A DNA stretch of 64,000 nt from Corticibacter populi (GTDB lineage Bacteria > Pseudomonadota > Gammaproteobacteria > Burkholderiales > Burkholderiaceae_C). Numbering within the stretch: position 1 is the stretch's first letter; every line of letters begins with the position of its first letter. The notes under the pieces were generated by a model. That model was not told the origin of the DNA. It did not search any database and saw only the letters and a program-made list of their open reading frames with translations. The translations under genes and the position numbers were made by a program. Shown here in pieces: positions 4,329 to 34,675 of the stretch. The stretch is from assembly GCF_004217315.1 (NCBI RefSeq), contig NZ_SGWR01000001.1, forward strand, positions 1 to 64,000. The letters run 5' to 3'.

Positions 4329-4353
4329 GAAGCGCTCCCGGCTCGGGTCTGCA

Positions 4354-9943: not shown

Positions 9944-10037
9944 GGTGAGCTCCTTGTGGGCTGGGGTGAAGAATCGGCAGGGTGAGGTTCGGTTGCTCAG
10001 GCGCGACCGCGGAGCAGGCGCGGCCCGGGCCAGGCCC

Positions 10038-10104
10038 CCCCGCGGAACGGGCTTTGCCAGGCCGCTGGGGGTGTACCCTTTCCCGCGCAGCGCGGCGAGA
10101 GAAG
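10038..10104. repeat. Intergenic repeat copy A, between fmdA and urtE
   Basis: This stretch (CCCGCGGAACGGGCTTTGCC ... CCCGCGCAGCGCGGCG ... GAGAAG) is repeated with few changes at 10913-10983. Both copies lie just past a urt gene end, and both stops are followed on the minus strand by CATGGMGCATCCCC. It contains GC-rich self-complementary segments and may act as a processing or stability element in the operon mRNA. Confidence 0.6.
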
Positions 10105-10141
10105 GGGGGAGGCGGCGCAGCCGCACGGGGGATGCGCCATG

Positions 10142-10852: not shown

Positions 10853-10912
10853 TGGGGCTCTCCGGTGCCGCGGCATGTGCGGCTTGAAGGGGGCGCGTTG
10901 AAACAGGCAGGG

Positions 10913-13867: not shown

Positions 13868-14061
13868 GGCCTGCTCCTTTTCATGGCCCGCCGGGCGGCG
13901 CCGGAAACCGCGCGGGTAGGGCGCTGGCTGCGTTGTCGTTGAAGGGGATGATCGGATGGGGTGAGGGAAGGCGGGGGCAGGCGCATGCGGATGCGGATGC
14001 GGCACGCAGCGGTCGCCGGCATTGCCGGGCGACCGCTGGCGGGCCGCCGCCCGCCGGGGCT

Positions 14062-15333: not shown

Positions 15334-15460
15334 CGTTGACTCCATGCAAGGTTGAGGAAGGGGGGGCCATCAGTCCGGCTCGGCAATCCGTGGGCCGGCA
15401 GGTGCTCCATCAGGGAAATCACCATGGCCGAGATGGTGCGGGGCGGGCTTCTCTTCGCCA

Positions 15461-15478
15461 ATACGTCATTTGACGTAT
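15461..15478. promoter_or_regulatory. Perfect 18-bp palindrome, candidate operator of the urt and kinase promoters
   Basis: ATACGTCATTTGACGTAT is an 8+2+8 perfect inverted repeat midway between urtA (start 15333) and the kinase gene (start 15633). A copy with one change lies upstream of amiE at 33298-33315. The 8-bp arms around a 2-bp centre suit a dimeric LuxR-type HTH protein. The obvious candidate is the response regulator at 19071-20012. The rest of the 15334-15632 interval shows no gene. Confidence 0.75.
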
Positions 15479-15632
15479 CGGGAGCGGCGGCCATGCCGCC
15501 GAGAATCCGCTGGACCGGTCCGCCACAGCAGGATGTCGTGGCGCGGGTACGGTTTTTGCGTATCCTGCCGACCGGCCGTTCACGCGGTGCCGGCACCTGC
15601 TTCCTGCCTCTTGTCACTCACCCATCACCCAC

Positions 15633-18600
15633 ATGTCCGCCGCAAGCCCACAGAAAATCCTGCGCATCCGGCGGGACTACAACACCTGGGTGGCCAACGA
15701 AACCCTGGAGGATTTCGCGCTGCGCTACACGCCGCGCAGCTTCCGGCAATGGTCCGAGTTCCGCGTGGGCAACACGGCCTTTGGCGCCACGTCGTTCCTG
15801 GCGCTGGAGGCGATCGGCGCGGCGGTGGCGCTGAGCTATGGCTTCACCAACGCGGTGTGGACCATCCTCGCGGTGGGGCTGATCATCTTCCTGACGGGGC
15901 TGCCGATCTCCTATTACGCTGCGCGCTATGGCGTCGACATGGACCTGCTCACGCGCGGCGCGGGCTTTGGCTACCTGGGCTCGACCTTCACCTCGCTGAT
16001 CTACACGACCTTCACCTTCATCTTCTTTGCGCTGGAGGCGGCCATCCTGGCGCTGGCCCTGCGGCTCTACCTCAACTGGCCGCTGCATTGGCTGTACCTG
16101 CTGTCGTCGCTGGCGATCATCCCGCTGGTGATGCGCGGCATCACCCTGATCTCGCGGCTGCAGCTGTGGACGCAGCCGATCTGGATCGTGCTGTTCCTGC
16201 TGCCCTTCATCGGCATCTGGGCGCAAAGTCCGCACCTGTATGCCGAATTTACCGGCCTGGTCGGGCGCATTTCCGGCAGCAGCGGTTTCGACCTGCTGAT
16301 GTTCGGGGCCGGCAGCACGGTGATCCTGGCGCTGATCGTGCAGATCGGCGAGCAGGTGGACTACCTGCGCTTCCTGCCGGAGAAGACGCCGCAGAGCCGC
16401 TGGCGCTGGTGGACGGCGGTGGTGGTGGCCGGGCCGGGCTGGATCGTGCCGGGTGTGATCAAGATGCTTGGCGGCGCCTTTCTCGCCTTCGTGGCGCTGC
16501 AGCACGAAATCCCGCCCGAGCAAGCCATGGAGCCCACCCGCATGTACCTGGCCGGCTTTGCCTATGTCTTCGGCGATCCGGCCGTGGTGGTGGCCGTGAC
16601 GGTGCTGTTCGTCATCGTCTCGCAGATGAAGATCAACCTCACCAACGCCTATGCCGGCTCGCTGGCCTGGTCGAACGTGTTCGCGCGTCTGACGCACAGC
16701 CATCCGGGGCGCGTGGTGTGGCTGGTCTTCAACGTCATGATCGCGGTGCTGCTGATGTGGCTGGGCGTCTTCAAGGCGCTCGAGCATGTGCTGGGCATCT
16801 ACGCCAACATCGCCATCGCCTGGGTTGGCGCGTTGGTGGCCGATCTGGTCATCAACAAGCCCCTGGGCCTGAGCCCGCGGGGCATCGAGTTCAAGCGCGC
16901 CTACCTCTACGACATCAACCCGGTCGGCATCGTCTCCATGCTGGCGGCGGCCGTGCTCTCCATGACCGCCTATACCGGCGTGCTGGGCGCATGGGCCAGC
17001 GCCTTCTCGTCCTTCATCGCCCTGGGCACGGCGCTGCTGCTGGCGCCGCTGCTGGCCTGGGCGACGCGCGGGCGCTACTACCTGGCGCGCCGGGACGCAC
17101 CCCGCTGGCGGGCCGGCGAGCACGTCACCTGCTCGATCTGCGACAACGTCTTCGAGTCCGAGGACATGGCCTGGTGCCCCGCCTATGGCGCGCCGATCTG
17201 CTCCTTGTGCTGCACGCTCGAATCGCGGTGCCACGACCGTTGCAAGACCGGCTCGCGCGCCCCCGAGCAGGTGCGCGCCTGGGTGCAGCACTGGCTGCCG
17301 GCGCGTCTTGCGGCGCGCTTCAACTTCCGTGTCGCCCACTACCTCGGGGTGGCCTGCGGCATGGTGGTATTGGTGGCCATCATCCTGGGCATCATCTACG
17401 CGCAGGAAGTGCTCAGCGGCAAGGGCGTGATGTTCCGCCAGGATGAGTTGCGCACGCTGTTCCTGAAGGTTTTCGCGATCTTCTCGGTCATCGCCGCGGT
17501 GGTGGCCTGGTGGGTGGTGCTGGCCAGCGAGAGCCGCAAGATGGCGCAGGACGAGTCCAATCGCCACAACGTCCTGCTCAGCCAGGAAGTCGAGGCGCAC
17601 CGCCGCACCGACGCGGCGCTGCAATCGGCCAAGGAGGCGGCCGAGGCCGCCAACCAGGCCAAGACCCGCTACGTGGCAGGCATGACGCACGAGTTGCGCA
17701 CCCCGCTCAACAGCATCCTGGGCTACACGCAGATCCTGCTGCGCGGCGATGGCGAGGCCCCGCTGCCGCCGCGCGAGGCAATCCGCACCATCCACCACAG
17801 TGGCGAGCACATGCTTGGCCTGATCGACGGCTTGCTGGACCTGGCCCGCATCGAGGCCGGCCGCCTGCAGCTCGACCGCCAGCCGCTGGCCTTCGCCGCC
17901 TTCATGGACGACGTGGTGCAGATGATCGCACCGCAGGCCCAGGCCAAGGGCCTGGCCTTCCACTACACGCATGCCGGGCGGCTGGCGCGCTGGGTCAATG
18001 CCGATGCCAAGCGGCTGCGCCAGGTGCTCATCAACCTGCTTTCCAACGCCGTCAAGTTCACCGACAGCGGCAGCGTCACGCTGCACGTGGACAGTCAGCG
18101 CGAAGTCATGCAGTTCGATATCATCGATACAGGTCCCGGGGTGGCGCTGCAGGACCGCCAACGCATCTTCCTGCCGTTCGAGCGAGGCGCCGCCGGGCGC
18201 CGCAATGGTGCGCCCGGCACCGGCCTGGGCCTGACCATCACGGCCTTGCTGACCTCCCTGATGGGCGGCGAGCTGCAGCTGGTGGCCAGCAGTGGTTCCG
18301 GCAGTACCTTCCGCTTGCGGCTCTACCTCCCGGAAGTGGCCGATCCCGGCATCAGGACCGCGGTGCCGCGCGCCATCACCGGCTACACCGGCAGACGGCG
18401 CACGCTGCTGGTCGTGGACGACCAGCCGGTGCAGCGCCAGATGCTGGCCGGCATGCTGCTGCCGCTGGGCTTCGAGGTGCGCGAGGCCGCCAGCGGCACC
18501 GAATGCCTGGAGCTGCTGCAGGCGTTGGTGCCGGATGCCATACTGCTGGACTTGAGCATGGACGACATGGATGGCTGGCGCACCGCCGATGCCATCCGGC

Positions 18601-19055
18601 AGGCCGGTTTTCAGGCACTGCCCATCATCATCGTTTCGGCCAACCTGTTCGAGAACCAGCCCGAGCGCCTGCGGGCGCACGATTGCCAGGCTTTCGTCGG
18701 CAAGCCGGTGATGGAGTCGGAACTGCTCAAGACCCTGCATGCGCAGCTGGACTGCGAATGGATTTTCCAGAGCGTGCCCGCGCCGGTGGTGGAGACTGTC
18801 CAGGTCGATTTCTCGCTCCTGCAGGAACCAGAGCGCCTGGAATTGCTGCAGCTGGCACAGATGGGGCATGTCCGCGGGCTGCATCGCGCCGCCGAACGGA
18901 TCGAGCGTGCCGATGCGGCCATGACTCCCCTGTGCGACTGGATCCGGGAGCGGCTCGATGCCTTCGATCTGGAGGTGCTGATCGAGATCCTGGGCAAGTC
19001 GGGTGGACCTGCGCCACCCGCCATTCCCGTGATGACCAGCCATGAAAAGCATTGA
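15633..19055 (+). CDS. NCS1 permease / hybrid histidine kinase fusion sensor
   Basis: This 1140-residue protein joins a transporter to a two-component sensor. Residues about 40-480 form a purine-cytosine permease (NCS1) with some twelve helices. Residues 500-537 hold eight cysteines (C500, C503, C515, C523, C526, C527, C533, C537), a likely metal-binding insert. Two more helices (about 570-590 and 610-630) and a short coiled coil lead to a HisKA domain with H686 in THELRTPLNS. The HATPase has NLLSNAVKF, DTGPGV and GTGLGL. A receiver follows with acceptor D973 (LLDLSMDDMDG), then about 100 residues of unassigned tail. It is divergent from urt-fmd and 15 bases before a LuxR-type regulator. Sensing of urea, amides or purines through the permease domain is inference. 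Confidence 0.93.
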   Translation: MSAASPQKILRIRRDYNTWVANETLEDFALRYTPRSFRQWSEFRVGNTAFGATSFLALEAIGAAVALSYGFTNAVWTILAVGLIIFLTGLPISYYAARYGVDMDLLTRGAGFGYLGSTFTSLIYTTFTFIFFALEAAILALALRLYLNWPLHWLYLLSSLAIIPLVMRGITLISRLQLWTQPIWIVLFLLPFIGIWAQSPHLYAEFTGLVGRISGSSGFDLLMFGAGSTVILALIVQIGEQVDYLRFLPEKTPQSRWRWWTAVVVAGPGWIVPGVIKMLGGAFLAFVALQHEIPPEQAMEPTRMYLAGFAYVFGDPAVVVAVTVLFVIVSQMKINLTNAYAGSLAWSNVFARLTHSHPGRVVWLVFNVMIAVLLMWLGVFKALEHVLGIYANIAIAWVGALVADLVINKPLGLSPRGIEFKRAYLYDINPVGIVSMLAAAVLSMTAYTGVLGAWASAFSSFIALGTALLLAPLLAWATRGRYYLARRDAPRWRAGEHVTCSICDNVFESEDMAWCPAYGAPICSLCCTLESRCHDRCKTGSRAPEQVRAWVQHWLPARLAARFNFRVAHYLGVACGMVVLVAIILGIIYAQEVLSGKGVMFRQDELRTLFLKVFAIFSVIAAVVAWWVVLASESRKMAQDESNRHNVLLSQEVEAHRRTDAALQSAKEAAEAANQAKTRYVAGMTHELRTPLNSILGYTQILLRGDGEAPLPPREAIRTIHHSGEHMLGLIDGLLDLARIEAGRLQLDRQPLAFAAFMDDVVQMIAPQAQAKGLAFHYTHAGRLARWVNADAKRLRQVLINLLSNAVKFTDSGSVTLHVDSQREVMQFDIIDTGPGVALQDRQRIFLPFERGAAGRRNGAPGTGLGLTITALLTSLMGGELQLVASSGSGSTFRLRLYLPEVADPGIRTAVPRAITGYTGRRRTLLVVDDQPVQRQMLAGMLLPLGFEVREAASGTECLELLQALVPDAILLDLSMDDMDGWRTADAIRQAGFQALPIIIVSANLFENQPERLRAHDCQAFVGKPVMESELLKTLHAQLDCEWIFQSVPAPVVETVQVDFSLLQEPERLELLQLAQMGHVRGLHRAAERIERADAAMTPLCDWIRERLDAFDLEVLIEILGKSGGPAPPAIPVMTSHEKH

Positions 19056-19070
19056 AGCAGAGGAACAGCC

Positions 19071-20012
19071 ATGATGCCAGGTGGAGACAAGTCCGTCGGG
19101 GCGGGTACCGGCCCGGACATTCTGCTGGGTGGGGCAGCAAGCCGCCGCCCGTCCCCGGTGGTGCTGGTGGTCGATGATGACCCCGCCAGCCTGCGCATGC
19201 TGTGCGACGCGCTGGAGGCCGGCGGCTACACCGTGCTGATCGCCACCAGCGGCGAGGCCGCGCTGCAACGGCTGGCGCATGCGGCGCCCGATGCCATCCT
19301 GCTCGATGGTGTCATGCCTGGCCTCTCGGGCTTCGAGACCTGCCGGCGCATCAAGGCCGATCCGCGCAGCGCGCACATTCCGGTGCTGTTCATGACCGGC
19401 CTGGGCGAAACCACCGACGTCGTGCAGGGCTTCGAGAGCGGCGGGGTCGACTACGTCGTCAAGCCCATCCGCATCGCCGAAGTGCTGGCGCGGCTGCAAA
19501 CCCACACCCGCAACGCGCGCATGGCCCAGTTTGCCCATGCCGCGGTGGATGTCGCCGGCATGGGCGTGCTGTTCGTCGACCTGGACGGCAGCGTGGTCTG
19601 GCTATCCCCGCAGGCGACGCAGTGGCTCCAGCAGGCCGGTGGCGTCAGCCAGTTGCCGCCGGCCTGGCAGGCGGCGCGACAGGCCGGTGCCAGCCTGCAG
19701 CTGCCCTGGGACGAGCGCCATGTCATGCACATCCGCAGCATCGGCGCGCCCAGCGCCGGCGAGCTGATGCTGCTGCTGCGCCTGGAGGCGCAGAACGCGG
19801 AGACCGGCTCACGGCTGCGCGATGCGGCCCTGACGGCGCGCGAGACCGAAGTGCTCTCCTGGGTCGCCAAGGGCAAGACCAACCGCGACATCGCCGAGAT
19901 CCTGCAACTGAGCCCGCGCACGGTCAACAAGCATCTGGAGCATGTCTTCGAGAAGCTGGGCGTCGAGACACGCGCGGCGGCGGCGGCCCTGGCCAGCCGG
20001 GAACTGGCCTGA
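19071..20012 (+). CDS. Response regulator with LuxR-type DNA-binding domain
   Basis: The 313-residue protein has a receiver domain (residues about 28-145; acidic pair in VVDDDP, acceptor D79 in ILLDGVMPG, Lys in YVVKPIR), a middle segment of about 90 residues that may be a small PAS-like module, and a C-terminal LuxR helix-turn-helix (LTARETEVLSWVAKGKTNRD, then IAEILQLSPRTVNKHLEHVF). It follows the kinase by 15 bases, so both are one transcription unit and very likely cognate. The likely targets are the palindromes at 15461 and 33298. An additional ATG one codon in (19074) is equally possible. Confidence 0.92.
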   Translation: MMPGGDKSVGAGTGPDILLGGAASRRPSPVVLVVDDDPASLRMLCDALEAGGYTVLIATSGEAALQRLAHAAPDAILLDGVMPGLSGFETCRRIKADPRSAHIPVLFMTGLGETTDVVQGFESGGVDYVVKPIRIAEVLARLQTHTRNARMAQFAHAAVDVAGMGVLFVDLDGSVVWLSPQATQWLQQAGGVSQLPPAWQAARQAGASLQLPWDERHVMHIRSIGAPSAGELMLLLRLEAQNAETGSRLRDAALTARETEVLSWVAKGKTNRDIAEILQLSPRTVNKHLEHVFEKLGVETRAAAAALASRELA

Positions 20013-20381
20013 GCGCCTGTTTCCGACTCTTGCGGCGCGGTGCACCGCAGCGCAGTCAGGCGGAACGAGGACGCGGCCGCCTCGGCATGTCCTGCAATGG
20101 CAATGGATACCGGCGGATGGTTCCCATCGGCCATCTGGCAGACCCCATCTTCATACGGCCTGACCGCACCATCCCGGCGCATTCGCACCATTGGATGGCA
20201 TGCCCGGCTGGCGTGAACGCCCCCATTCGGCGCGCCATACCGCCGACAGTGCGTTGTGGTGCCGACTTTCCCGTCTTCCTTTTCCTCTCCTGCTGATGCC
20301 GGTGCCCGGTTTGGGCTGGCATGGATTCTGCTTGAGGTGGATAACTGTATCCAATTATCCAGTCATCCAGTTTCACGTTTC
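20013..20381. other. Intergenic region upstream of the GntR gene
   Basis: No gene is supported here. The last 45 bases turn AT-rich, and ATAACTGTATCCAATTATCC with the following AGTCATCCAGTTT contains three ATCCA/TCCAGT-like repeats and imperfect symmetry. That is a plausible site for autoregulation by the adjacent GntR protein. No terminator hairpin was seen after the response regulator gene. Confidence 0.4.
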
Positions 20382-21101
20382 ATGTCGAATCCTATGCTGC
20401 CCGGTCAGGACATCTACCACTTCGCCTCCACGGCCGAGGAGGATGCCTACCGCCACATCCACGCCGCGATTCGCCTGGGGCGCTACCAGGCGGGACAGCG
20501 CCTGGTGCCCGAGACCATTGCCGCCGAGATCGGCACCAGCCGCATGCCGGTGCGCGAGGCTTTCCGGCGCCTGGCGGCGGAGGGGCTGGTGACGATCCGT
20601 CCCAACCGCGGCGCAGTGGTAACCGGGCTGGACGTTGCCGACATGCAGGAGATCTTCGAGATGCGCGCGGTGCTGGAAGGCCTGGCCGTGCGGCTGGCCT
20701 TGCCCAACGTCACGCGTGCAGTGCTGCAGACGCTCGATGAGCTGCTCGACCGCATCGACGACCGCGATGAGAACCTGGCCGACTGGACCACTGCGCACCG
20801 CCATTTCCACGAGACGCTGTGCCGTCTCAGTGGTCGCCCGCGCCTGGTGCGCCAGATCGCCAGCCTGCATTCGCTGGTGGAGCCGCACATGCGGCTGTGG
20901 ATCAACCAGGTCGAGTCGCGCCCGAGCGCTCGCGGCGATCACCAGCATCTGCTCGACGCGCTGCGCGATGGCGACCCGCTGTTGTGCGAGCAGGCCATGC
21001 GCGCGCACGTGCTCGACACCGTTCCCGACTTGCTGGCGCTGCTGCCGCCTGCCGTTACCAGCCGCCATGTCGTGACCAAGCCTTTTTCTTCCAACTTCTG
21101 A
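20382..21101 (+). CDS. GntR-family transcriptional regulator, FCD (FadR) subfamily
   Basis: The 239-residue protein has an N-terminal winged helix (residues about 18-82: AYRHIHAAIRLGRYQAGQRL, ETIAAEIGTSRMPVREAFRR, LAAEGLVTIRPNRGAVV) and an all-helical FCD ligand domain (MQEIFEMRAVLEGLAVRLAL ... HRHFHETLCRLSG ... EHQ-type histidines in GDHQHLLDALRDGD). FCD domains bind small carboxylates, often through a metal held by such His/Asp residues. It lies 14 bases before the peptide transporter genes in the same direction, so it probably regulates them and itself. The start at 20382 fits the onset of the HTH domain. Confidence 0.9.
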   Translation: MSNPMLPGQDIYHFASTAEEDAYRHIHAAIRLGRYQAGQRLVPETIAAEIGTSRMPVREAFRRLAAEGLVTIRPNRGAVVTGLDVADMQEIFEMRAVLEGLAVRLALPNVTRAVLQTLDELLDRIDDRDENLADWTTAHRHFHETLCRLSGRPRLVRQIASLHSLVEPHMRLWINQVESRPSARGDHQHLLDALRDGDPLLCEQAMRAHVLDTVPDLLALLPPAVTSRHVVTKPFSSNF

Positions 21102-21115
21102 TGAGGAGTGACCCC

Positions 21116-22765
21116 ATGTCCATGACCGATTCCAAAGGCAATTCCGCCACCGACCACAAGGCCCTGCTGGCCGAGAAGATGGCCACCGATTTCCGCCGCC
21201 GGGACCTGTTCAAACTGGCCGCCGCCGGCACCGGACTGCTGGCCGCCTCGGCGTTCGGCGTGGGCAAAGCGCATGCGCAGGCCAAGCGTGGCGGCACGCT
21301 GACGCTGGCATGGCTGGATGCGATCGACACGCTCGATCCGCACTTCACGATGTCGGGCGGCTCGATCAAGGTGATCAACAACGTCTTCAACGGCCTGCTC
21401 AAGGTCGCCTACGACGGCCAGAAGGTCAGCTTCGCGCCGGACCTGGCCGAGTCTTGGGACATGGTCAGCGAGACCGAGCACGTCTTCAAGCTGCGCAAGG
21501 ACGTGACCTTCCACAACGGCGATGCCTGCGATGCCGAGGCGGTCAAGTGGAGTCTGCTGCGCGTGGCCGATCCGGAAGTGAAGTCGCCCCATGCCTGGAA
21601 GTTCGCGCAGCTCGATGGCATCGACATCGTCGATCCGCTCACCATCCGCCTGCGTTTCAAGAAGCCGTTCGCCTTCCTGCCAGTCGCATTGACGGGCAGC
21701 ACCGGCCGGGCCGGCACCATCGTCTGTCCGCGCGCGGTGCAGGAGTCGGGCAAGGGCTTTGGCCGCAAGCCGGTGGGCACCGGGCCCTTCAAGTTCGTGA
21801 GCTGGCGCGAGAACGATTCGATCGAGCTGGCGCGCAACGCTGCGTATTTCGAGAATGGCCTGCCATATCTGGACCGGGTGGTGATCCGCCTCATCAAGGA
21901 ACCCAGCGCGGGCGTGGCTGCCGTGATGGCCGGCCAGGTCGATGGGCTGTCAGTGTGCCCCTTCCAGTTCATCCCGCAACTGCGCAAGAACCCCAACCTC
22001 AGCATCTACGGCCAGGTCGAGGGCAATTACTCCTTCCTCGGCATGAACAACAGGCGTGCGCCGTTCGACGACAAGCTGCTGCGCCAGGCCGTGGCTTTTG
22101 CCATCAACCGCGACGTGATCGTCGAGCAGAGCTACTTCGGCGAGGCCATTCCGGCCTTCACCGCCATCTCGCCGCCGATGACGGATTTCTACGACCCCAA
22201 CATCGCCAAGAGCGGCAGGGGCCAGTTCTTCGATCTGGAGAAAGCCAAGGCCTTGCGTGCCCAGTCCAAGGTGCAGGGCGAGATCAACCCGGTCTACATC
22301 GTCACCGATGGTTTCACCGGCTCGGGCGGCATGGGCACCCGCAATGCGCAGCTGATTGCGCCGATGCTCGAGCAAATCGGCATCAAGCCCAAGATCGAGC
22401 TGGTCGATCGGGCCGTGTGGGCGCAGCGCCGCAACGCGGGCGACTTCGACCTGTATGACGAAGCCTGGATCGCCGACCTCGACCCGGACGAGACCATCAC
22501 CCCCGAATGGTCGACCGGCAAGCCCTGGAATTTCGTCGGTTACAGCAATCCGGCCTTCGACCAGGCGGCTGCGGCCGCCGGCGAGACCATGGACACCGCG
22601 CGGCGTCGGCAACTCTACATCGAGGCCGAGGACATTCTGATGGCCGACGCGCCGCTGGCGGTGCTGGCGCACATGAAGGTGTTCAAGATCCTGGCCAAGA
22701 AGGTGCAGGGCTTCGAGTACATCCCGGCCGACCTGCTGGACCTGCACCGCGTGTCGCTGGCCTGA
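21116..22765 (+). CDS. Peptide-type ABC transporter substrate-binding protein, Tat signal
   Basis: The 549-residue periplasmic protein carries a twin-arginine signal (FRRRDLFKLAAAGTGLLAAS ... AHAQA). The family-5 body has GGTLTLAWLDAIDTLDPHFT, WDMVSETEHVFKLRKDVTFH, GTGPFKFVSWRENDSIEL and LLRQAVAFAINRDVIVEQSY. Family members bind di- and oligopeptides, glutathione or opine-like compounds. The start at 21116 has a GAGGAG Shine-Dalgarno. Neighbours are the two permeases, two ATPases and a gamma-glutamyltransferase-like enzyme, which points to gamma-glutamyl or other peptides. Confidence 0.92.
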   Translation: MSMTDSKGNSATDHKALLAEKMATDFRRRDLFKLAAAGTGLLAASAFGVGKAHAQAKRGGTLTLAWLDAIDTLDPHFTMSGGSIKVINNVFNGLLKVAYDGQKVSFAPDLAESWDMVSETEHVFKLRKDVTFHNGDACDAEAVKWSLLRVADPEVKSPHAWKFAQLDGIDIVDPLTIRLRFKKPFAFLPVALTGSTGRAGTIVCPRAVQESGKGFGRKPVGTGPFKFVSWRENDSIELARNAAYFENGLPYLDRVVIRLIKEPSAGVAAVMAGQVDGLSVCPFQFIPQLRKNPNLSIYGQVEGNYSFLGMNNRRAPFDDKLLRQAVAFAINRDVIVEQSYFGEAIPAFTAISPPMTDFYDPNIAKSGRGQFFDLEKAKALRAQSKVQGEINPVYIVTDGFTGSGGMGTRNAQLIAPMLEQIGIKPKIELVDRAVWAQRRNAGDFDLYDEAWIADLDPDETITPEWSTGKPWNFVGYSNPAFDQAAAAAGETMDTARRRQLYIEAEDILMADAPLAVLAHMKVFKILAKKVQGFEYIPADLLDLHRVSLA

Positions 22766-22787
22766 GGCCTGTGAGCGGGAATCGACA

Positions 22788-23777
22788 ATGACAGCCACCA
22801 CGATGAATGCCCCCTGGACGGGCAACCCCTGGCTGCGACGGGCCCTGGCGGCCATTGGACAGACCGTGCTGGTGCTGTTCGTGGTCTCCGTCGTGAGCTT
22901 CGTGTTCCTCAAGCTCACGCCGGGCGATCCGGTGACGGTGATGCTGGGTTCGGACTTCTCGCAGGAGTCCTACGACAAGCTCTACCACGACCTCGGGCTG
23001 GATCTGCCCTGGGCGCTGCAATACTGGCACTGGCTGCTGAATTTCGTGCAGGGCGACTGGGGCCAGTCCTACGTGAGCCACCAGGACATCTTCGACCTGG
23101 CGGTCAAGGAAGCCCTGCCGGTGACGCTGACGCTGGCGGGTCTGTCGCTGCTGATTGCGCTGGTGGTGGGCATTCCGCTGGGCGTGGTTGCGGCGGTGCG
23201 TCGCAACAGCTGGGCGGATGTGCTCGCCAGCGTCACGGCCATTGGCGGCAACGCCTTTCCCAGTTTCTTCCTGGGGGTGGTGCTGATCTGGGTGTTCGGC
23301 GTCTGGCTGGGCTGGTTCCCGACCATGGGCTATGTCTCGCCCTGGCAGGACTTCCGTGCGGGCCTCTGGCATCTGGCGCTGCCGGCGCTGACGCTGGGCG
23401 CCTGGTACGTGGGGCTGATCGCCGCGGTGACGCGCTCGAGCCTGCTGGAGGTGCTGGGCCAGCCCTACATGGCGGCCGCCCGTGCCCGTGGCGAGCCGCA
23501 GTGGCGCGTGATCTGGGTGCACGGCATGCGCAACGTGCTGATGCCGCTGGTGACGGTGATCGGCCTGCAGCTCGGCGGCATGCTGCGCGGCGCCGTGATG
23601 ACCGAGGTGGTGTTCACGCTGCCGGGCCTGGGCATGATGATCACGCAGGCCGTGCAGACGCGTGAATACACCGTGGTGCAGGCCGGCATCATGATGACGG
23701 CGCTGCTCTTCGTGCTGGTCAATTTCGTCGTCGACCAGACCTATGTTCTGCTGGACCCGAGGCTGCGCAAGAAATGA
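22788..23777 (+). CDS. Peptide ABC transporter permease, DppB-type
   Basis: The 329-residue inner-membrane protein has the DppB/OppB layout: an N-terminal helix (IGQTVLVLFVVSVVSFVFLK), then KLTPGDPVTVMLG, a periplasmic segment, and five further helices with the coupling loop PYMAAARARGEPQWRVIWVH. Its final stretch VDQTYVLLDPRLRKK is the usual end of this family. Its stop overlaps the start of the second permease gene by four bases. Confidence 0.93.
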   Translation: MTATTMNAPWTGNPWLRRALAAIGQTVLVLFVVSVVSFVFLKLTPGDPVTVMLGSDFSQESYDKLYHDLGLDLPWALQYWHWLLNFVQGDWGQSYVSHQDIFDLAVKEALPVTLTLAGLSLLIALVVGIPLGVVAAVRRNSWADVLASVTAIGGNAFPSFFLGVVLIWVFGVWLGWFPTMGYVSPWQDFRAGLWHLALPALTLGAWYVGLIAAVTRSSLLEVLGQPYMAAARARGEPQWRVIWVHGMRNVLMPLVTVIGLQLGGMLRGAVMTEVVFTLPGLGMMITQAVQTREYTVVQAGIMMTALLFVLVNFVVDQTYVLLDPRLRKK

Positions 23778-25674: not shown

Positions 25675-25687
25675 GGACGATGCAAAG

Positions 25688-26743
25688 ATGACAACGAGCA
25701 TGATGAATCCGGCGCCTGCCAGCGCCCGCGCGGCGGCTGCGTCGCCGCTGTTCTCGCTGCTGGACGTGGAAAAGGTTTTCCCCATTGACAGTGGACGGCG
25801 CCAGCTCAAGGCGCTCGACGGTATCCGGCTTGAACTGCGGCCGGGCGAATCGCTGGCGCTGGTGGGCGAGAGCGGCTCGGGCAAGTCCACGCTGGTGCGT
25901 GTGATGCTGGGGCTGGAGCCGGCCAGCAACGGCCGGGTGATCGTCGGCACGCAGGACCTGGCCAGCCTGGACCGCGCCGGCCGCCAGAAGTTCGCCCGCG
26001 AAGTGGCCTACATCTACCAGGATGCGCGCGGTTCGCTGAACCCGCGGATGACGGTGGGCGCGCTGCTGGCCGAGCCGATCCGCCTGCATCGCCTGCGCGA
26101 GAGCCGGGAGGTGGATGGCCGCGTCGATGAGCTGCTCGCGCAGGTCGGCCTGCCGGAGGCAACGCGCTACCGTTACCCGAGCGAGCTCTCCGGCGGGCAG
26201 GTGCGCCGCGTCGCGGTGGCGCGCGCCCTGGCCAGCGAGCCGCGTGTGATCGTTGCTGACGAATCGGTGGCGGGCCTGGATGTCTCGGTACAGGCGCAAC
26301 TGCTGAACCTGCTGCGCGACCTGCAGCGCGACACTGGTCTGGCCATGGTTTTCGTCACGCACGACCTGGGCGTGGCCGCCTATCTGTGCGAGCGGGTGGC
26401 GGTGATGTACCTGGGGCGCATCATGGAGCTGGGGCCCTCGCAGGACATCCTGCGCGCGCCGCGCCACCCATACACGCAAGGGCTGCTGCAGGCCTTTCCG
26501 CGTTTTGATGCGCCGCTCACCGTCAGCCTCAAGGGGGAGATTCCCAGTCCGGCCAATCTGCCGCAGGGTTGCCGCTTCCAGAGCCGCTGCCAATGGGTGC
26601 AGGAGGACTGCCGGCAGACCGATCCGGTACAGCGGCCGCTGCCGGGCCGGCAGGTGGCCTGCTTGCATCCGCTGCCGGTGCCGGAGTCCGGTATCCTGCA
26701 CGCTGCATCACCTGGCGCCGCGCCGCGTGGTCGCAGAGCCTGA
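25688..26743 (+). CDS. Peptide ABC transporter ATP-binding protein, DppF-type
   Basis: The 351-residue ATPase has Walker A GESGSGKST (60-68), a Q-loop YIYQDARGSLNPRMTV, signature LSGGQ (with VRRVAVARAL), Walker B VIVADESVAGLD and switch VTHDLGVAAYL. The Walker B carries Ser where DEPT is usual (DESV), as in some DppF relatives. A C-terminal Cys motif (LPQGCRFQSRCQW) is kept. It ends at TGATG, one base into a possible start of the next gene. Confidence 0.92.
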   Translation: MTTSMMNPAPASARAAAASPLFSLLDVEKVFPIDSGRRQLKALDGIRLELRPGESLALVGESGSGKSTLVRVMLGLEPASNGRVIVGTQDLASLDRAGRQKFAREVAYIYQDARGSLNPRMTVGALLAEPIRLHRLRESREVDGRVDELLAQVGLPEATRYRYPSELSGGQVRRVAVARALASEPRVIVADESVAGLDVSVQAQLLNLLRDLQRDTGLAMVFVTHDLGVAAYLCERVAVMYLGRIMELGPSQDILRAPRHPYTQGLLQAFPRFDAPLTVSLKGEIPSPANLPQGCRFQSRCQWVQEDCRQTDPVQRPLPGRQVACLHPLPVPESGILHAASPGAAPRGRRA

Positions 26744-26784
26744 TGTATCCAGAAATTCAGAAAGATAGACAAGGAGATCCGATC

Positions 26785-28404
26785 TTGGCTTCCAGCTTCA
26801 CCCCCAACCCGGCGCGCGGTGTGCGCGGCATGGTCACGGCACCGCATTCACTGGCCAGCCAGAGCGCGCTGGCAGTGCTGCGCGAAGGCGGCAACGCCGT
26901 CGAGGCGATGGTGGCCGCCGCGTCCACCATCGCGGTGGTCTACCCGCACATGAACAGCATCGGCGGCGACGGCTTCTGGCTGATTTCGCAACCGGGCCAG
27001 GCGCCGCGCGGCCTGGAGGCCTGCGGCGCGACGGCGCAGGCGGCCAGCATCGAAGCCTATCGTGCCGCCGGCTTGCAAAGCATTCCGTTCCGTGGCGGCA
27101 TGGCGGCCAACACGGTGGCCGGCACGATTTCCGGCTGGGATGCGGCACTGCGCTATTCGCGCGAGGCACTGGGCGGGCGGCTGCCGCTGGCACGCCTGCT
27201 GGGCGACGCCATCGACTATGCGCAAGGGGGCATCCCGGTCACCGGCAGCCAGTCGGTCTGCACCGCCCAGCGCATTGCACAGCTGGCGCCCATTGCCGGT
27301 TACGCCAGCACCTTCCTGAACGCGGACGGCAGCGCGCCCGCGCCCGGTAGCCTGTTCCGCCAGCCGCGCCTGGCGGCCACGCTGCAGCATCTGGTTGCAG
27401 ATGGGCTGGACGACTTCTACCGCGGCGAACTGGCACGCAGCATGGCCGCCGACTTGCAGGCGGTTGGGAGCCCGCTGGCGCTGGCCGACCTGCAGGCGCA
27501 TCAGGCGGTGTGGAAGACGCCGCTGGCACTGTCGCATTCGCTGGGCACCATCTACAACATGCCGCCGCCCACGCAGGGGCTGGTGTCCCTGCTGATTCTC
27601 GGTCAGCTCGACCGCCTGCTCGACGCCGCCAGCATGTCGCCGCTGGGGGCCAGCTATGTGCACGCCTGCGTGGAGGCGACCAAGCAGGCCTTTGCGATCC
27701 GCGATCGCCACATCACCGATCCGGCATACATGCGCGTCGACCCGCAGGATTTCCTGCAGGCCGCCAAGCTGGATGAGATGGCTTCGCGCATCTCGCCCGC
27801 GCAGGCGTTGCCATGGGGCAATGGCCAGGGCCCGGCCGATACCATCTGGATGGGCGTGATCGATGGCAATGGCGTGGCCGTGAGCTTCATCCAGAGCATT
27901 TACCACGAGTTCGGCAGCGGCGTGGTGCTGGCCAACTCCGGCGTGAACTGGCAAAACCGCGGTTGCAGCTTCTCGCTCGACCCTGAGGCGCTCAATCCGC
28001 TGACGCCGGGGCGAAAGCCTTTCCACACGCTCAATCCGGCGATGGCGCGGTTCGCCGATGGCCGCACCATGGTCTACGGCAACATGGGCGGCGACGGGCA
28101 GCCGCAGTCGCAGTCGGCGGTGTTCAGCCGCATCGCGGTGTTCGGCATGAACCCGCAAGCGGCCATCGCCGCGCCGCGCTGGCTGCTGGGCCGCACCTGG
28201 GGCGAGAGCAGCGATTCGCTCAAGCTGGAAGCGCGCTTCCCGGCCGAGACGGTGGAGGCACTGCGGCGCATGGGCCATGTGGTGGACGTGCTGCAGCCGT
28301 TCGACGAAAGCATGGGGCATGCCGGCGCCATCGTGCGCCATGCCGATGGCAGCTTCGAGGGCGGCAACGACCCGCGCAGCGACGGCGTGGCGCTGGGCTG
28401 GTGA
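26785..28404 (+). CDS. Gamma-glutamyltransferase-like (Ntn-hydrolase) enzyme
   Basis: The protein is a GGT-family enzyme of about 539 residues without a signal peptide, so it probably acts in the cytoplasm on imported gamma-glutamyl compounds. N-terminal blocks (GVRGMVTAPHSLASQSALAV, LREGGNAVEAMVAAA, HMNSIGGDGFWLI) are typical. The autoprocessing Thr is in ADTIWMGVIDGNG (codon at 27841), followed by VAVSFIQSIYHEFGSGVVL and the NMGGDGQPQSQ block. A TTG start at 26785 is preferred because AAGGAG lies 8 bases before it. The alternative ATG at 26743 overlaps the previous stop and has no clear Shine-Dalgarno; it would add 14 polar residues. Association with a peptide importer supports glutathione or gamma-glutamyl peptide use. 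Confidence 0.88.
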   Translation: MASSFTPNPARGVRGMVTAPHSLASQSALAVLREGGNAVEAMVAAASTIAVVYPHMNSIGGDGFWLISQPGQAPRGLEACGATAQAASIEAYRAAGLQSIPFRGGMAANTVAGTISGWDAALRYSREALGGRLPLARLLGDAIDYAQGGIPVTGSQSVCTAQRIAQLAPIAGYASTFLNADGSAPAPGSLFRQPRLAATLQHLVADGLDDFYRGELARSMAADLQAVGSPLALADLQAHQAVWKTPLALSHSLGTIYNMPPPTQGLVSLLILGQLDRLLDAASMSPLGASYVHACVEATKQAFAIRDRHITDPAYMRVDPQDFLQAAKLDEMASRISPAQALPWGNGQGPADTIWMGVIDGNGVAVSFIQSIYHEFGSGVVLANSGVNWQNRGCSFSLDPEALNPLTPGRKPFHTLNPAMARFADGRTMVYGNMGGDGQPQSQSAVFSRIAVFGMNPQAAIAAPRWLLGRTWGESSDSLKLEARFPAETVEALRRMGHVVDVLQPFDESMGHAGAIVRHADGSFEGGNDPRSDGVALGW

Positions 28405-28416
28405 GCAGGTTCTCAG
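28402..28416 (+). repeat. Stop-codon repeat, copy 3 (short)
   Basis: TGAGCAGGTTCTCAG begins with the TGA stop of the gamma-glutamyltransferase-like gene. It is the near-palindromic right half of the 30-bp repeat at 895 and 50009, here in opposite orientation relative to the gene it ends. Confidence 0.45.
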
Positions 28417-28517
28417 CGCCTCTGCACGGCTTCTGAGACAATGCCGGCCGGCCTGCCATCGCGGGTGGCCGGCTCTGAGCCGGTTCCCGGACCATGCAAC
28501 CAAGAAAGAAGAGATCC

Positions 28518-29504
28518 ATGCCGCGTTTGCGCTTTCTCCCCGACCGCTTCGTGCTGGTGCTGCTGGGCACCGTGCTGCTGGCCTCGCTGCTGCCGCCCAG
28601 CGGGCGTGCGGCGATCGGCTTTGAGTGGCTGACCAATGCGGCCATCGCACTGCTGTTCTTCATGCACGGTGCCAAGCTCTCGCGCGAGAGCATCATCGCC
28701 GGGGTGTCGCACTGGCGGTTGCACCTGCTAGTGTTCGCCTTCACGTTCGCGCTGTTCCCGCTGCTCGGGCTGCTGATGCGGCCGATGCTGGAGCCGCTGA
28801 TCGGCCCCGAGCTGATGCTGGGCATGCTGTACCTGTGCGCGCTGCCGGCCACGGTGCAGTCGGCGATCGCCTTCACCTCGATGGCGCGGGGCAACATCCC
28901 GGCGGCCATCTGCAGCGCGGCGGCTTCGAGCCTGCTGGGTGTGTTCATCACGCCCATCCTGGTGCTGTGGCTGATGGGCGTGCAAGGCGGCGATGCCGCG
29001 GGCTCGGTGGCCGATGCCATCGGCAAGATCACCCTGCAACTGCTGGTGCCCTTCATTGCCGGGCAGATCGCGCGGCGCTGGATCGGCGGCTGGGTGGCGC
29101 GCAACAAACAGTGGCTCAAGTATGTGGACCAGGGCTCGATCCTGCTGGTCATCTACACCGCGTTCGGCCGCGCCGTGCACGAGGGGCTGTGGCAGCAGGT
29201 GCCGCTGGCGAGCCTGCTTTTGCTGCTGCTGGCCTGTGCGCTGCTGTTGGCGCTGGTGCTGGCCATCGTGTGGTGGGGCAGCAAGGCGCTGGGTTTTGAC
29301 TTGCCGGACCGCATCACCATCCTGTTCTGCGGCTCCAAGAAGAGCCTGGCCACTGGCGTGCCGATGGCGCAGGTGCTGTTTGCCGGTGGCGCCATCGGCG
29401 CCATGATCCTGCCGGTGATGCTGTTCCACCAGATCCAGCTGATGGTGTGCGCCTACCTTGCGCAGCGTTTTGCGCAGCGCAAGGACGTCGCCGAAGACGC
29501 CTGA
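28518..29504 (+). CDS. SLC10/bile acid:sodium symporter family protein (YfeH type)
   Basis: The 328-residue membrane protein has about ten helices and the family patterns AAIALLFFMHGAKLSRESII, LPATVQSAIAFTSMARGN (crossover motif) and CGSKKSLATGVPMAQVLF. It belongs to the SLC10A7-like branch, whose substrates in bacteria are mostly unknown; some take up organic anions. The ATG at 28518 (MPRLRFLPDRF) has GAAGAG just upstream and is preferred to the ATG at 28494. It lies about 115 bases after the gamma-glutamyltransferase-like gene and converges with the vWA gene downstream. Confidence 0.88.
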   Translation: MPRLRFLPDRFVLVLLGTVLLASLLPPSGRAAIGFEWLTNAAIALLFFMHGAKLSRESIIAGVSHWRLHLLVFAFTFALFPLLGLLMRPMLEPLIGPELMLGMLYLCALPATVQSAIAFTSMARGNIPAAICSAAASSLLGVFITPILVLWLMGVQGGDAAGSVADAIGKITLQLLVPFIAGQIARRWIGGWVARNKQWLKYVDQGSILLVIYTAFGRAVHEGLWQQVPLASLLLLLLACALLLALVLAIVWWGSKALGFDLPDRITILFCGSKKSLATGVPMAQVLFAGGAIGAMILPVMLFHQIQLMVCAYLAQRFAQRKDVAEDA

Positions 29505-29546
29505 CGATTTATCTGCTGTCGGGCGTGGAATAGGTGCGGGATGTCG

Positions 29547-31367
29547 TCACGCGCCGAGCAATCCGCGCAATGCCTGCGGCAACTGCTCGGGGTGCTGTAC
29601 GCGGCGCCACTGATGCATGCCCCAGAGCCGGTCGAGTGCCGCCGTGGCATCACTGGCCGCACACAGACAGGCCACGCGCACACCCGCCTGCCGCAACTCG
29701 CGCAGTGCCTGCCGGGTGTCGTGTTCAAGGTAATGGGGGGCATGGACGTCGATGTCGTGCACCTCGGCATCGCCGAGCACGATCAGCAGCCGCTGGCTTT
29801 CGGGGCGCTGACCCAGCAAGGAGCCGGCGTGACGGAGCACGGCGCCGAGCCGGGTCGAATAGCCGCTTTGCAGGCTGCCCAGGCGCCGCTGCAGGCGCGC
29901 ATCCACCGCATCATCGAAATCCTTGAGGCAGCCCATGCGCACGGCATGGCGGCCGTCGGAGCAAAAACCGTGGGCGGCGCTGCGCCAGCCGGCCTGCTGC
30001 ATGCCGGCCAGCAGGCTGCTGGCGAGCTGGCGGTGCATGTCCAGGATGGTGCCGCCATCGCCATCGCCATCGCCATCGCTGACCAGGCGCGTGGCCGTGG
30101 AGGCCGAGTGATCCAGCAGCACCAGCGCCGCCGTGGAGGCAATGCCGTGCTGGCGTTCGAAGATGCGCCAATCACCGTCATGGCCGCTGCGGCGCTGCAC
30201 GCCGGCCTGCACGGCGGCGTCGAGCTGCAGGGCATCGCCCTCGTGGTGCAGGTCATGCCGGCGCGCCAGTGTCAGCCAGTGGGGGCGCTGGTTGCGCAGA
30301 ATGCCCGTCAATGCCTGCACCAGCAGCGGGGGCGGTGCCCGCCATGGCTGGCCTTCGGCAGCCGCGAAAGTATGCACCGAACACCAGTTGCGCCGTAGCT
30401 GGCGGATGCGGGCATCCCATTCGGGGTGGCGTGTCTGCGTGGCGTCGGGAGCGTCGGTGGCGTTTGGGGATGGCCCTGGCTGATGGCGCGGTGGGGGTGG
30501 CGCAGGCGGCTGGGCGATGGTCTTTTCGGCGCCGGACTGGTACCACAGCCAATGGTTGTCGTCCCGGTACAGTGGCAGCGGCCGGTAGCTGCGCGGATTG
30601 AGGGCGCGGCGCATTTGCCCGAGCTCGTTGCCCAGCTCGGAGGCGAGCCTGCGCAGCGCCACCGGATCCTGGGTGAAGTCGTGGTGTTCCTGCATGCGCT
30701 GCCTGAACAAGGCCTGGCCCTTGCGCACCCAGGGGTGCGGGTCTTCGACGGCCGGGTCGGCCAGCGCATGTGCGAGCCGGCGCAGCAGCGCCTCCAGAGA
30801 AGCATCATCGGCAGGCGCCCGGGCGGCCGCCTGTGCATGCCAATGGCACCACAGTCGTTGCAGGCCGGGCAACTCGCGCGCGGCCAGTTGTTCGATGCGG
30901 GCGTCTTCCAGCACGCCCAGCAGCACCTGGGTGATCGGAGGTACGCCGGCGGTGTCGTAGCGGTGGCGTGAATGCACCAGGTGTGCGGCGGCGTGGGCGC
31001 TCGCGGCGAGGTACCAGCGGGTGAGATCGACCAGCACTGTGTCGGTGGTGGGGTGGTGATCCTGGTCCTGCCGGGCCAGCGTGTCCAGACCATGCAGTCC
31101 GTGGCGTTCGTGCTGCAGTTTATGCCAGAGCTGCCCGGCCCCGAGCTGCGCCGGCAGCAGCAGACCCGAGGGCAGGATTTGCGGCGCGGCGGGAAGCGGC
31201 GATGCGCCCGCCGAGGCATCTGCGGCCGTCTGCAGTGGTGGTGCTTGGTTCCACAGCAGGCGCAGCCAGGCCTGCAGCAGGGTGCGCAGCTCTGCCAGGC
31301 GGACCTGCGCTGCCTGCGGGCTCTGGCTTGAATCGAATGCCAGGGGCAAAGAGTCAGAAGCTCGCAT
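29547..31367 (-). CDS. NorD/CbbO-like protein with von Willebrand factor A domain
   Basis: The 606-residue protein has a helical N-terminal part with an HDxTH-free, Asp/His-rich region (residues about 95-150) and a C-terminal vWA domain (about 420-606) with a MIDAS motif DHSAS in VLLDHSASTATRL and a later GDAEVHDIDVH. A low-complexity DGDGDGDGG run sits just after the MIDAS loop. NorD/CbbO/CobT-type vWA proteins act with a MoxR AAA+ ATPase to remodel or metal-load an enzyme. The start overlaps the AAA+ gene end by 14 bases. Being third in an operon with amiE, it is likely to serve the amidase; that is inference. Confidence 0.85.
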   Translation of the reverse strand: MRASDSLPLAFDSSQSPQAAQVRLAELRTLLQAWLRLLWNQAPPLQTAADASAGASPLPAAPQILPSGLLLPAQLGAGQLWHKLQHERHGLHGLDTLARQDQDHHPTTDTVLVDLTRWYLAASAHAAAHLVHSRHRYDTAGVPPITQVLLGVLEDARIEQLAARELPGLQRLWCHWHAQAAARAPADDASLEALLRRLAHALADPAVEDPHPWVRKGQALFRQRMQEHHDFTQDPVALRRLASELGNELGQMRRALNPRSYRPLPLYRDDNHWLWYQSGAEKTIAQPPAPPPPRHQPGPSPNATDAPDATQTRHPEWDARIRQLRRNWCSVHTFAAAEGQPWRAPPPLLVQALTGILRNQRPHWLTLARRHDLHHEGDALQLDAAVQAGVQRRSGHDGDWRIFERQHGIASTAALVLLDHSASTATRLVSDGDGDGDGGTILDMHRQLASSLLAGMQQAGWRSAAHGFCSDGRHAVRMGCLKDFDDAVDARLQRRLGSLQSGYSTRLGAVLRHAGSLLGQRPESQRLLIVLGDAEVHDIDVHAPHYLEHDTRQALRELRQAGVRVACLCAASDATAALDRLWGMHQWRRVQHPEQLPQALRGLLGA

Positions 31368-32190
31368 CGATGGCGGCGGCCAGGGCCTGTTGCATGTCGG
31401 CCGCGTCGCTCAAGGGCGTGGCAATGGCCATCTGGCAGGCGGCGCGCGGTGCCATGCCTTGCGCGACGAACTGGGCTGCGCGCACCAGCATGCGGGTGGA
31501 GGCGCCTTCGTCAAGGCCGTTGCCAACCAGCCGCCGCGTGCGCGTGCCCAAGGCCACCAGCGGTCTGGCTTGCGCGGCATCGATGCCTGCCTCGTGCATG
31601 AGAATGGCCGCTTCCAGCTCGGGTGGCGGGTAGTGGCATTCCAGTCCGCAGAAGCGCTGGCGTGTGGACGTCTTGAGCAGGCGGCCGCCGCCGGGGTTGT
31701 ACGACACCACCAGCATGAAATCCGGGTGGGCGTGGACAAGCTCGCCGTGGCGGTCCAGCGGCAGCATGCGGCGGGTGTCGGACAGCGGGTGGATGGCCAC
31801 CAGCGTATCCGGCCGCGCCTCGACTACTTCGTCCAGGTAGCAGATGGCGCCGTGGCGCGCCGCCAGCGTCAGCGGGCCGTCCTGCCAGCGCGTGCCGTCT
31901 GCATCGAGCAGCCAGCGGCCCAGCAGGTCGCCGGCAGTGGTGTCCTCGTTGCAGGCGACGGTGACCAGCGGCAGGCCCAGGCGCCAGGCCATGTGCTCGA
32001 CCAGCCGCGTCTTGCCGCAGCCGGTCGGGCCCTTGAGCAGCAGCGGAGTGCGTTGATGGAAGGCGGCTTCGAACTGCTCGATCTCGCCGCCGGCCGGAGC
32101 GTAGTAGGGCTGCGCATCGAGCCGCCACTCGTCCAGCGCGTGGCTGCCTGTATCTGCTGCCATGCCCATGCCACCGATCATGGCGCTCAT
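31354..32190 (-). CDS. MoxR/NorQ/CbbQ-type AAA+ ATPase
   Basis: The 278-residue ATPase has Walker A GPTGCGKT (residues about 53-60), Walker [14 protein letters not shown], a sensor stretch [10 protein letters not shown] and the NorQ/CbbQ block [20 protein letters not shown]. These ATPases mature partner enzymes together with a vWA protein, such as CbbQO for Rubisco and NorQD for nitric oxide reductase. Its ATG overlaps the stop of amiE (CAATGAGC), so it is translationally coupled to the amidase. In Pseudomonas the amidase operon also carries an ATPase gene (amiB), which supports a link. Confidence 0.9.
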
Positions 32191-33230
32191 TGGTGGACCT
32201 GGGCGGTGTCCTCGTTGGGCAGGCCTTCGATGGGCGCTTCGGCGGTGCCGATGGTGCTGCGGGTGAACGATTCGACCATCTTGCGCGTGCCCTCCGGATC
32301 GTTGACCCATTTGCCGTAGAACTCATACGGGCACTCGGCCACGCCCTTGTCGCCGTCGTGCGAGTTGATCACGCCGGTGTAGCCGCGGTGCACCAGCTTG
32401 AAGAGGTGGTTCTCGCTCTGGCCGTTCTTGCGGAAGTCGCGGATCAGGCTCTTGGAGAGGGCCGCGTACTGGATGCCCATTTCCTCTTCGCCGCACTCGC
32501 CCAGCGTGCGGCCATCGAAGCCGATCAGCGCCGAGTGGCCGAAGTACGAATACACGCCGTCGAAGCCCGCCGCGTTGGCCACGGCCACGTAGGTGTTGTT
32601 GGCAAAGGCCATGGCCTTGCTGATGAGGATCTGCTGCTCCTTGGCCGGGTACATGTAGCCCTGGCAGCGCACGATCAGCTCGGCGCCCTTCATCGCGCAG
32701 TCGCGCCAGATCTCGGGGTAGTTGCCGTCGTCGCAGATGATCAGGCTGATCTTCATGCCCTTGGGGCCGTCGCTGACGTAGGTGCAGTTGCCCGGGTACC
32801 AGCCCTCGATGGGTACCCAGGGCATGATCTTGCGGTACTTCTGCACGATCTCGCCCTGGTCGTTCATCAGGATCAGCGTGTTGTAGGGCGCCTTGTTCGG
32901 GTGCTCCTCGTGGCGCTCGCCGGTCAGCGAAAACACGCCCCAGACCTTGGCCTTGCGGCAGGCCTCGGCGAAGATCTCGGTCTCGAAGCCGGGGCAGCTC
33001 GCGGCGTTCTCGTACATTTCGGCACTGTCGTACATGATGCCGTGGGTGCTGTACTCGGGAAAGATCACCAGATCCATGCCGGGCAGGCCGGACTTCATGC
33101 CGACCACCATGTCGGCAATGCGGCGGCAGTTCTCGACGACCTCGGCCTTGGTGTGCAGGCGCGGCATCTTGTAGTTGACGACGGCCACGCCGACGGTGTC
33201 GCGGCTGCTGGAAATATCACCATGAATCAT
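32187..33230 (-). CDS. amiE: Aliphatic amidase AmiE
   Basis: The 347-residue cytoplasmic nitrilase-superfamily enzyme hydrolyses acetamide, propionamide and similar amides to ammonia and acid. The catalytic triad is exactly placed: E59 in [11 protein letters not shown]134 in [10 protein letters not shown] and C166 in [14 protein letters not shown]. Length and sequence match the Pseudomonas AmiE type, not AmiF formamidase. An 18-bp palindrome lies 68-85 bases upstream of the start, matching the one before urtA. Two chaperone-like genes follow with overlaps. Confidence 0.97.
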
Positions 33231-33297
33231 GTGGCACTCCTGAAGGCGGTTCGCAGAATCGATGGAGAAATTCTAGGAACCGCCCCGGCAGCGGCCA

Positions 33298-33315
33298 ATA
33301 CGTCATTTGACGTAC
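33298..33315. promoter_or_regulatory. 18-bp palindrome upstream of amiE, candidate operator
   Basis: ATACGTCATTTGACGTAC differs in one base from the perfect palindrome at 15461-15478. It sits in the 98-base gap between guaD (stop 33329) and amiE (start 33230), at a distance suited to an activator site. Two occurrences only, both in front of amide-use genes, argue for a shared regulator. Confidence 0.75.
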
Positions 33316-34660: not shown

Positions 34661-34675
34661 GCCGTGGCCAAGCAC

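Follow-up and report, generated by a model that had tools for sequence, protein, structure and literature searches.

Candidate operators of a permease-kinase and response regulator system before the urea and amide genes of Corticibacter populi

Among the described regulatory systems closest to the one considered here is CrbS/CrbR (MxtR/ErdR) of Pseudomonas and Vibrio, a permease-fused hybrid kinase with a LuxR-type regulator, and the relevant passages of one account of it supply many of the comparisons below (PMC5715377). The locus to be set beside it lies in the first 64,000 nucleotides of Corticibacter populi contig NZ_SGWR01000001.1, a stretch analysed at its full length and here called the window, in which a palindrome between urtA and a hybrid sensor kinase gene recurs 18 kb away, before the aliphatic amidase gene amiE. 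Both palindromes are probably operators of the NarL/LuxR-type response regulator encoded at 19071-20012, which would act as a class II activator of the urt-fmd genes, of the kinase operon and of amiE; on the sequence evidence the probability of this reading is put at about 0.88.

As read from the sites listed in the passages on CrbR, its ACTU motif is an imperfect 7-2-7 palindrome that starts with TAC and is situated just upstream of the -35 element of uptake and use genes for one nutrient, as are the palindromes here with respect to predicted promoters; at the acs promoter the CrbR motif spans -52 to -36, and activation depends on it (PMC5715377). The nutrient there is acetate, in contrast to urea and amides here, the heptamer (again read from the listed sites) is about TACGACY rather than TACGTCA, and the membrane domain of CrbS is of the SLC5 plus STAC type (PMC5715377), whereas that of the kinase here comes nearest to Mhp1 and CodB, both NCS1 transporters. 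In the NarX/NarL system of E. coli, as the sections on the DNA site present it, the LuxR-type output domain of NarL binds two inverted heptamers 2 bp apart as a dimer, and an engineered NarL site, TACCCCTAAAGGGGTA, has the same ends (TAC-N10-GTA) and the same length as the core here, though the system responds to nitrate and its heptamer differs at positions 4, 5 and 7 (PMC4549865). RpuS/RpuR likewise has a permease-kinase (of the SLC5/STAC type) in control of a transporter but, in the part of the source that describes it, is a pyruvate system with a direct-repeat site (PMC9100948). By published annotation, neighbourhoods like this one exist in Ectopseudomonas guguanensis, where a hybrid kinase and a LuxR-type regulator adjoin a urtABCDE locus (PMC13296017), and in Dechloromonas aromatica, where table rows place a kinase and a receiver protein beside urtA (PMC2907700); the passages concerned mention no operator or regulon. 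A description of the present operator or regulon, or of a dedicated urtABCDE-fmdA operator, was not found among the matches listed for the open-licence PMC literature.

Two palindromes at urea and amide genes

The two candidate operators and the genes most directly concerned are as follows.

15461-15478, no strand: operator 1, ATACGTCATTTGACGTAT, between urtA and the kinase gene, with its 7-2-7 core at 15462-15477
33298-33315, no strand: operator 2, ATACGTCATTTGACGTAC, in the guaD-amiE gap, with its core at 33299-33314
14062-15345, minus strand: urtA, with a Tat-like signal, RRRRLLQG (TIGR03407, 523 bits, above cutoff)
15633-19055, plus strand: hybrid sensor kinase with an NCS1-permease-like membrane domain, a Cys-rich segment, HisKA, HATPase_c and a receiver (Pfam)
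19071-20012, plus strand: response regulator with a receiver, a middle region and a LuxR/GerE helix-turn-helix (Pfam; orthologues), the proposed binder
32187-33230, minus strand: amiE, aliphatic amidase (NF009802, 715 bits)

The genes urtABCDE and fmdA are to the left of operator 1 and the kinase and regulator genes to its right, while amiE, behind operator 2, is 18 kb from urt-fmd in this genome and has its own copy of the site. Operator 1 can be written ATACGTCA-TT-TGACGTAT, with 8-bp arms around a TT centre, and operator 2 ATACGTCA-TT-TGACGTAC, with arms of 7 bp because its last base is C. The two share 17 of 18 bases, and on the plus strand the identity extends to 21 bases, GCCAATACGTCATTTGACGTA, of which the extra bases form a -35-like element toward urtA and amiE. 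An initial annotation of the window had pointed out both palindromes and their 17-of-18 match, which are present as it described, and had correctly put the second before amiE, though the distance to the amiE start (33230) is 67 bases and not the 68 it gave.

That such a match would hardly arise by chance in 64 kb, as the annotation also held, agrees with the finding of no third site at up to 3 mismatches in the window and of no match in 100 dinucleotide-preserving shuffles of it. Across the whole genome (4,198,928 bases in 9 contigs) the 16-bp core TACGTCA-NN-TGACGTA (TACGTCANNTGACGTA) is exact at these two places only, with near-matches at one place with 1 mismatch, at 2 with 2 and at 21 with 3; the genome-wide scan that the annotation proposed therefore yields just two exact cores and no scatter of copies. 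Both precede urea or amide genes, urtABCDE-fmdA in one case and amiE in the other, in keeping with the earlier description.

The single 1-mismatch core, TACGTCAAATGACTTA, is outside the window (G000:C1:85571-85586; L003:1501-1516), about 160 bp before tatA, and its inclusion in the regulon is tempting because UrtA has a Tat-like signal. It was set aside, as the congener G002, which also carries the regulator and the site, lacks a second core at up to 2 mismatches, and as unrelated 1-mismatch cores occur in G012, G014 and G015 among 20 genomes, with no relative of 27 tested window proteins around them (the G014 copy is at helicase and redoxin genes). The copy before tatA is thus probably a chance match. 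The two 2-mismatch places, C1:630723 and C4:30918, showed no link to a urea or amide gene in the frames checked.

Conservation of the site and its association with the regulator

Nineteen near relatives were compared with the window's genome. Full-length orthologues of the regulator are present in G002 (70% identity), G011 (63%), G018 (52%) and G014 (48%), and each of these four has the site before urtA, as an exact core in G002, G014 and G018 (3 of the 19) and with 2 mismatches in G011. The kinase gene of G002 starts about 10.7 kb from the urtA site. A more distant kinase-regulator pair (44-47%) is found in G010, with no site at up to 2 mismatches in the 19 kb read. The inspection of this intergenic region in relatives, which the initial annotation had advised, shows a site that is kept before urtA and tracks the regulator gene. 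Only G011 and G018 have amiE (E up to 1e-60), in both cases within the urt-fmd cluster, and the other 17 have no match at this threshold.

In a sample of the order comprising 399 genomes, the window's included, and with a regulator threshold of E up to 1e-60, an orthologue of the regulator occurs in 59 of the 398 other genomes and the exact core in 9, all of them regulator-positive (hypergeometric P = 2e-8, with genomes treated as independent). In all 9 the core is at the kinase/urtA locus, between the two genes or before urtA, and there is no clear off-locus exact core in the 398, a second copy in G177, shortly after a regulator gene and close to a contig edge, being left aside. The pattern written backwards served as a control and gave 3 matches in 3 of the 399 genomes; against this control, the confinement of the core to regulator-positive genomes means that it is not scattered randomly and follows the regulator.

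The association extends well beyond the order. Relatives of the regulator were found in at least 594 matching stretches, of which the best 80 loci were kept; 56 of these had urtA with enough upstream sequence (the other 24 were left out) and, together with the window and four relatives, provided 61 urtA-upstream regions. The core is present with no mismatch in 14, with 1 in 12 and with 2 in 15, the remainder having 3 (5 regions), 4 (7), 5 (5) or 6 (3). At up to 2 mismatches this amounts to 41 of 61, versus 4 of 1187 windows drawn at random from these loci, and 60 palindromes with permuted half-sites each gave 0 of 61. Exact cores before urtA include those of Marinobacterium, Paraburkholderia, Labrenzia, Ciceribacter and Pseudomonas loci, which, going by genus names, we take to represent three proteobacterial classes (alpha, beta and gamma). 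Because the same sequence precedes the same genes in many distant bacteria that carry the switch, the palindromes are very probably the site of the switch protein. Additional sites with 1 or 2 mismatches precede fmdA in Pseudomonas gingeri and P. viridiflava and amiE in Alkanindiges, and these, judged by sequence, are the nearest parallel to the amiE site here; the best match in the other 18 of 20 fmdA-upstream regions examined has at least 5 mismatches.

The palindrome consists of inverted heptamers 2 bp apart, the layout of NarL/FixJ-type sites, and the regulator that is encoded at the locus and co-occurs with the site has a receiver and a GerE helix-turn-helix for which solved structures give matches to NarL and other LuxR-type domains. 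Layout and co-occurrence both support the suggestion of the annotation that a LuxR-type regulator is the natural binder; its placing of the gene beside the first site holds for the locus, although the 3.4-kb kinase gene intervenes. Of the 61 loci, 53 had a site usable for comparison with the recognition helix. With asparagine at residue 286, which we take to correspond to the base-contacting Lys188 of NarL, both heptamers have T at position 5 in 33 of 35 loci, while with lysine, aspartate, histidine or threonine they do so in 3 of 18 and mostly have C. In a tree from which the helix was excluded, the asparagine label undergoes at least 6 changes and the site label 5. Operator and helix thus appear to covary in part, which is supportive and not proof. 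In six loci with related kinase-regulator pairs (L117, L135, L138, L139, L140 and L111) the helix reads ATVKKHLE or MTVKKHLE and the palindromes upstream of urtA are TACGCC(A/G) instead of TACGTCA.

Promoter geometry, the sensor kinase and neighbouring genes

Promoter-like elements adjoin both palindromes.

33270-33298, minus strand: amiE promoter-like element TTGGCC-17-TAGAAT, its -35 abutting the operator 2 core; a consensus match only
15433-15461, minus strand: urtA promoter-like element TTGGCG-17-CACCAT, with the spacing seen at amiE and a geometry kept in relatives
15501-15506, plus strand: -10-like hexamer GAGAAT on the opposite side of the core, at a distance of 23 bp, toward the kinase gene

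The amiE element matches the promoter consensus at 9 of 12 positions, and the scanner found 1 such element against a shuffle mean of 0.0. Of the 52 sites with intact TAC...GTA ends, 35 have a -10-like hexamer (taken as TATAAT-like, with A second and T sixth) that starts exactly 23 bp from the core, the next best offset accounting for 10. Among 28 divergent kinase/urtA regions, several of them from close relatives, offset 23 is found toward urtA in 16 and toward the kinase gene in 15, and the next best offset in either direction in 4. With the hexamer at this offset on both sides, one palindrome appears to serve two divergent promoters symmetrically, from identical positions. Relative to the predicted starts (near 15426 for urtA, 15513 for the kinase gene and 33263 for amiE) the core would cover about -51 to -36, just upstream of the predicted -35, and since the CrbR motif that activation requires is at almost the same place, class II activation is favoured. 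Promoter-like elements at a fixed distance toward urt-fmd, the permease-kinase and amiE lend support to the proposal of the initial annotation that the three form one regulon.

The membrane domain of the kinase covers approximately residues 40-480. A Pfam comparison covering 15 members gave no significant match (best E 0.046), sequences of solved structures gave no relevant one, and the NCBIfam cytosine permease model matches it weakly (E 7.8e-6, below the model cutoff). A predicted model of the domain (mean pLDDT 72, pTM 0.73) finds its closest folds in two NCS1 transporters, Mhp1 and CodB (E 1.4e-8 to 2.4e-6, TM about 0.55), with further transporters of related fold, including Nramp, SGLT, a sialic acid symporter and the urea transporter DUR3, at weaker E. 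A CrbS-like SLC5/STAC domain was considered and rejected, with Mhp1 and CodB at the top, SLC5-type structures lower and Pfam without a significant match. The kinase is then probably permease-fused in the manner of CrbS, with a predicted domain of the NCS1 type and not SLC5/STAC, and from the neighbouring genes it may sense urea or amides. Between the permease-like domain and the kinase portion, at residues of about 500-540, is a conserved Cys-rich segment, C..C..FE..DMA.CPAY..PICSLCC.L..RC.D.CK, that resembles a metal site and for which no family was found.

The remaining genes of the urt-fmd cluster and those flanking amiE are listed here.

12953-14299, minus strand: open frame with the UrtB permease (PF02653 at residues 160-434), the true start being far inside, after urtA
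11764-12924, minus strand: urtC (TIGR03408)
11021-12166, minus strand: open frame with UrtD at residues 141-381 (TIGR03411)
10142-10876, minus strand: urtE (TIGR03410)
8711-10126, minus strand: open frame with formamidase FmdA at residues 64-468 (NF045496, 735 bits)
31354-32310, minus strand: AAA/CbbQ-NorQ-type ATPase, directly after amiE (PF07728, PF08406)
33329-34675, minus strand: guaD, flanking the gap that contains operator 2

The ATPase gene at 31354-32310 is possibly co-transcribed with amiE, and its position resembles that in Pseudomonas, where AmiB comes after AmiE. The UrtA proteins of fmd-type clusters mostly start with a twin-arginine-like RR(R/K)xLxG, and the other urtA type (about 37% identity) is mostly without it. 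Beside urt-fmd, at 3297-7326, the window also has a second ABC transporter with two SsuC/NtrB-like permeases, an ATPase and a substrate-binding protein.

Mechanism, alternatives and implications

The permease-like kinase would respond to urea, to a short amide or to a signal akin to them by phosphorylating the regulator, a dimer of which may then bind TACGTCA-NN-TGACGTA with one helix-turn-helix domain per heptamer. From a position adjoining the -35, at about -51 to -36, it would act as a class II activator and recruit sigma-70 RNA polymerase. The single palindrome of site 1 would serve the divergent urtABCDE-fmdA and kinase-regulator promoters, the latter as autoregulation, and at site 2 amiE would be switched on, perhaps along with the ATPase gene behind it. 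The evidence obtained here consists of sequence, uniqueness, conservation, co-occurrence, geometry and the partial covariation with the recognition helix.

Several observations weigh against this reading. In the order, where exact matches alone were scored, the core is absent from 50 of the 59 regulator-positive genomes, and the 9 that have it are not independent, G129, G168 and G353 being of one genus. A copy at up to 2 mismatches is missing from 20 of the 61 urtA-upstream regions. The urtA -10 (CACCAT) is weak. No relative examined has a detached amiE, so that conservation of the amiE site cannot be checked there. The covariation is mostly clade-wise, with 4 independent pairs of which about 2 agree and none opposes (not significant), and residue 286 ranks sixth by mutual information, behind five more variable columns outside the helix. 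Finally, in 17 of 36 named loci the site is at urtA but not beside the kinase gene, and of the 16 of these that could be scored (L097 could not) only L130 and L145 have a 2-mismatch copy upstream of the kinase gene. Autoregulation is therefore not general, and the kinase gene as the main target was rejected as a general rule.

The regulator could bind as proposed yet repress, with release on signal: a site beside the -35 could block polymerase, and sequence by itself fits an activator or a repressor. Repression is nonetheless unlikely, as the core would be at about -51 to -36 of predicted starts and not over the -10 or the start, as the weak -35 elements and weak urtA -10 resemble those of activator-dependent promoters, and as CrbR, in the passages on acs, activates from the same position (PMC5715377). 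Another protein that travels with these genes, a GntR- or TetR-type repressor or a nitrogen-control protein, might bind the palindrome instead, and a GntR-family gene is indeed nearby (20256-21101), with another upstream of urtA in G002 (L022:20-718). Yet the genome-wide co-occurrence that was counted is with the response regulator, a TAC-N10-GTA sequence centred on 2 bp has the layout of NarL sites, and site variants go with the recognition helix of the response regulator, all of which makes a different binder quite improbable.

Operator 1 might be real and the amiE copy a chance occurrence or relic, a view that draws on the lack of relatives with a detached amiE in which to check its site. 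It is made very improbable by the 21-base identity with site 1, in which the -35-like part is included, by the near-consensus element abutting the core, and by the order-wide dearth of clear off-locus exact cores. The idea that both palindromes are chance sequences with no function could appeal to the 1-mismatch cores at unrelated places in three relatives, but is contradicted by the conservation and by the co-occurrence with the regulator and is scarcely credible.

Activation by the response regulator, the reading preferred here, goes beyond the initial annotation in the genome-scale co-occurrence, the conservation across classes, the 23-bp spacing rule for promoters to either side of the core and an NCS1-type sensor. 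A wider proposition, on which our judgement is evenly balanced, is that these loci belong to a widespread and undescribed urea/amide regulon of alpha-, beta- and gamma-proteobacteria, with an NCS1-fold sensor kinase, one symmetric operator for two divergent promoters, and Asn286, with its neighbours, setting the fifth base of the operator. If so, TACGT sites would become TACGC when Asn286 is replaced by lysine, histidine, aspartate or, in Methylobacterium, threonine. Urea and short amides are common nitrogen sources, and for their use the outcome is an exact 16-bp candidate operator, a predicted binder, a promoter geometry and a list of genomes. The sensor kinase appears to have a permease fold distinct from SLC5, and the natural variants of operator and helix may provide material for a DNA-recognition code of NarL-type regulators.

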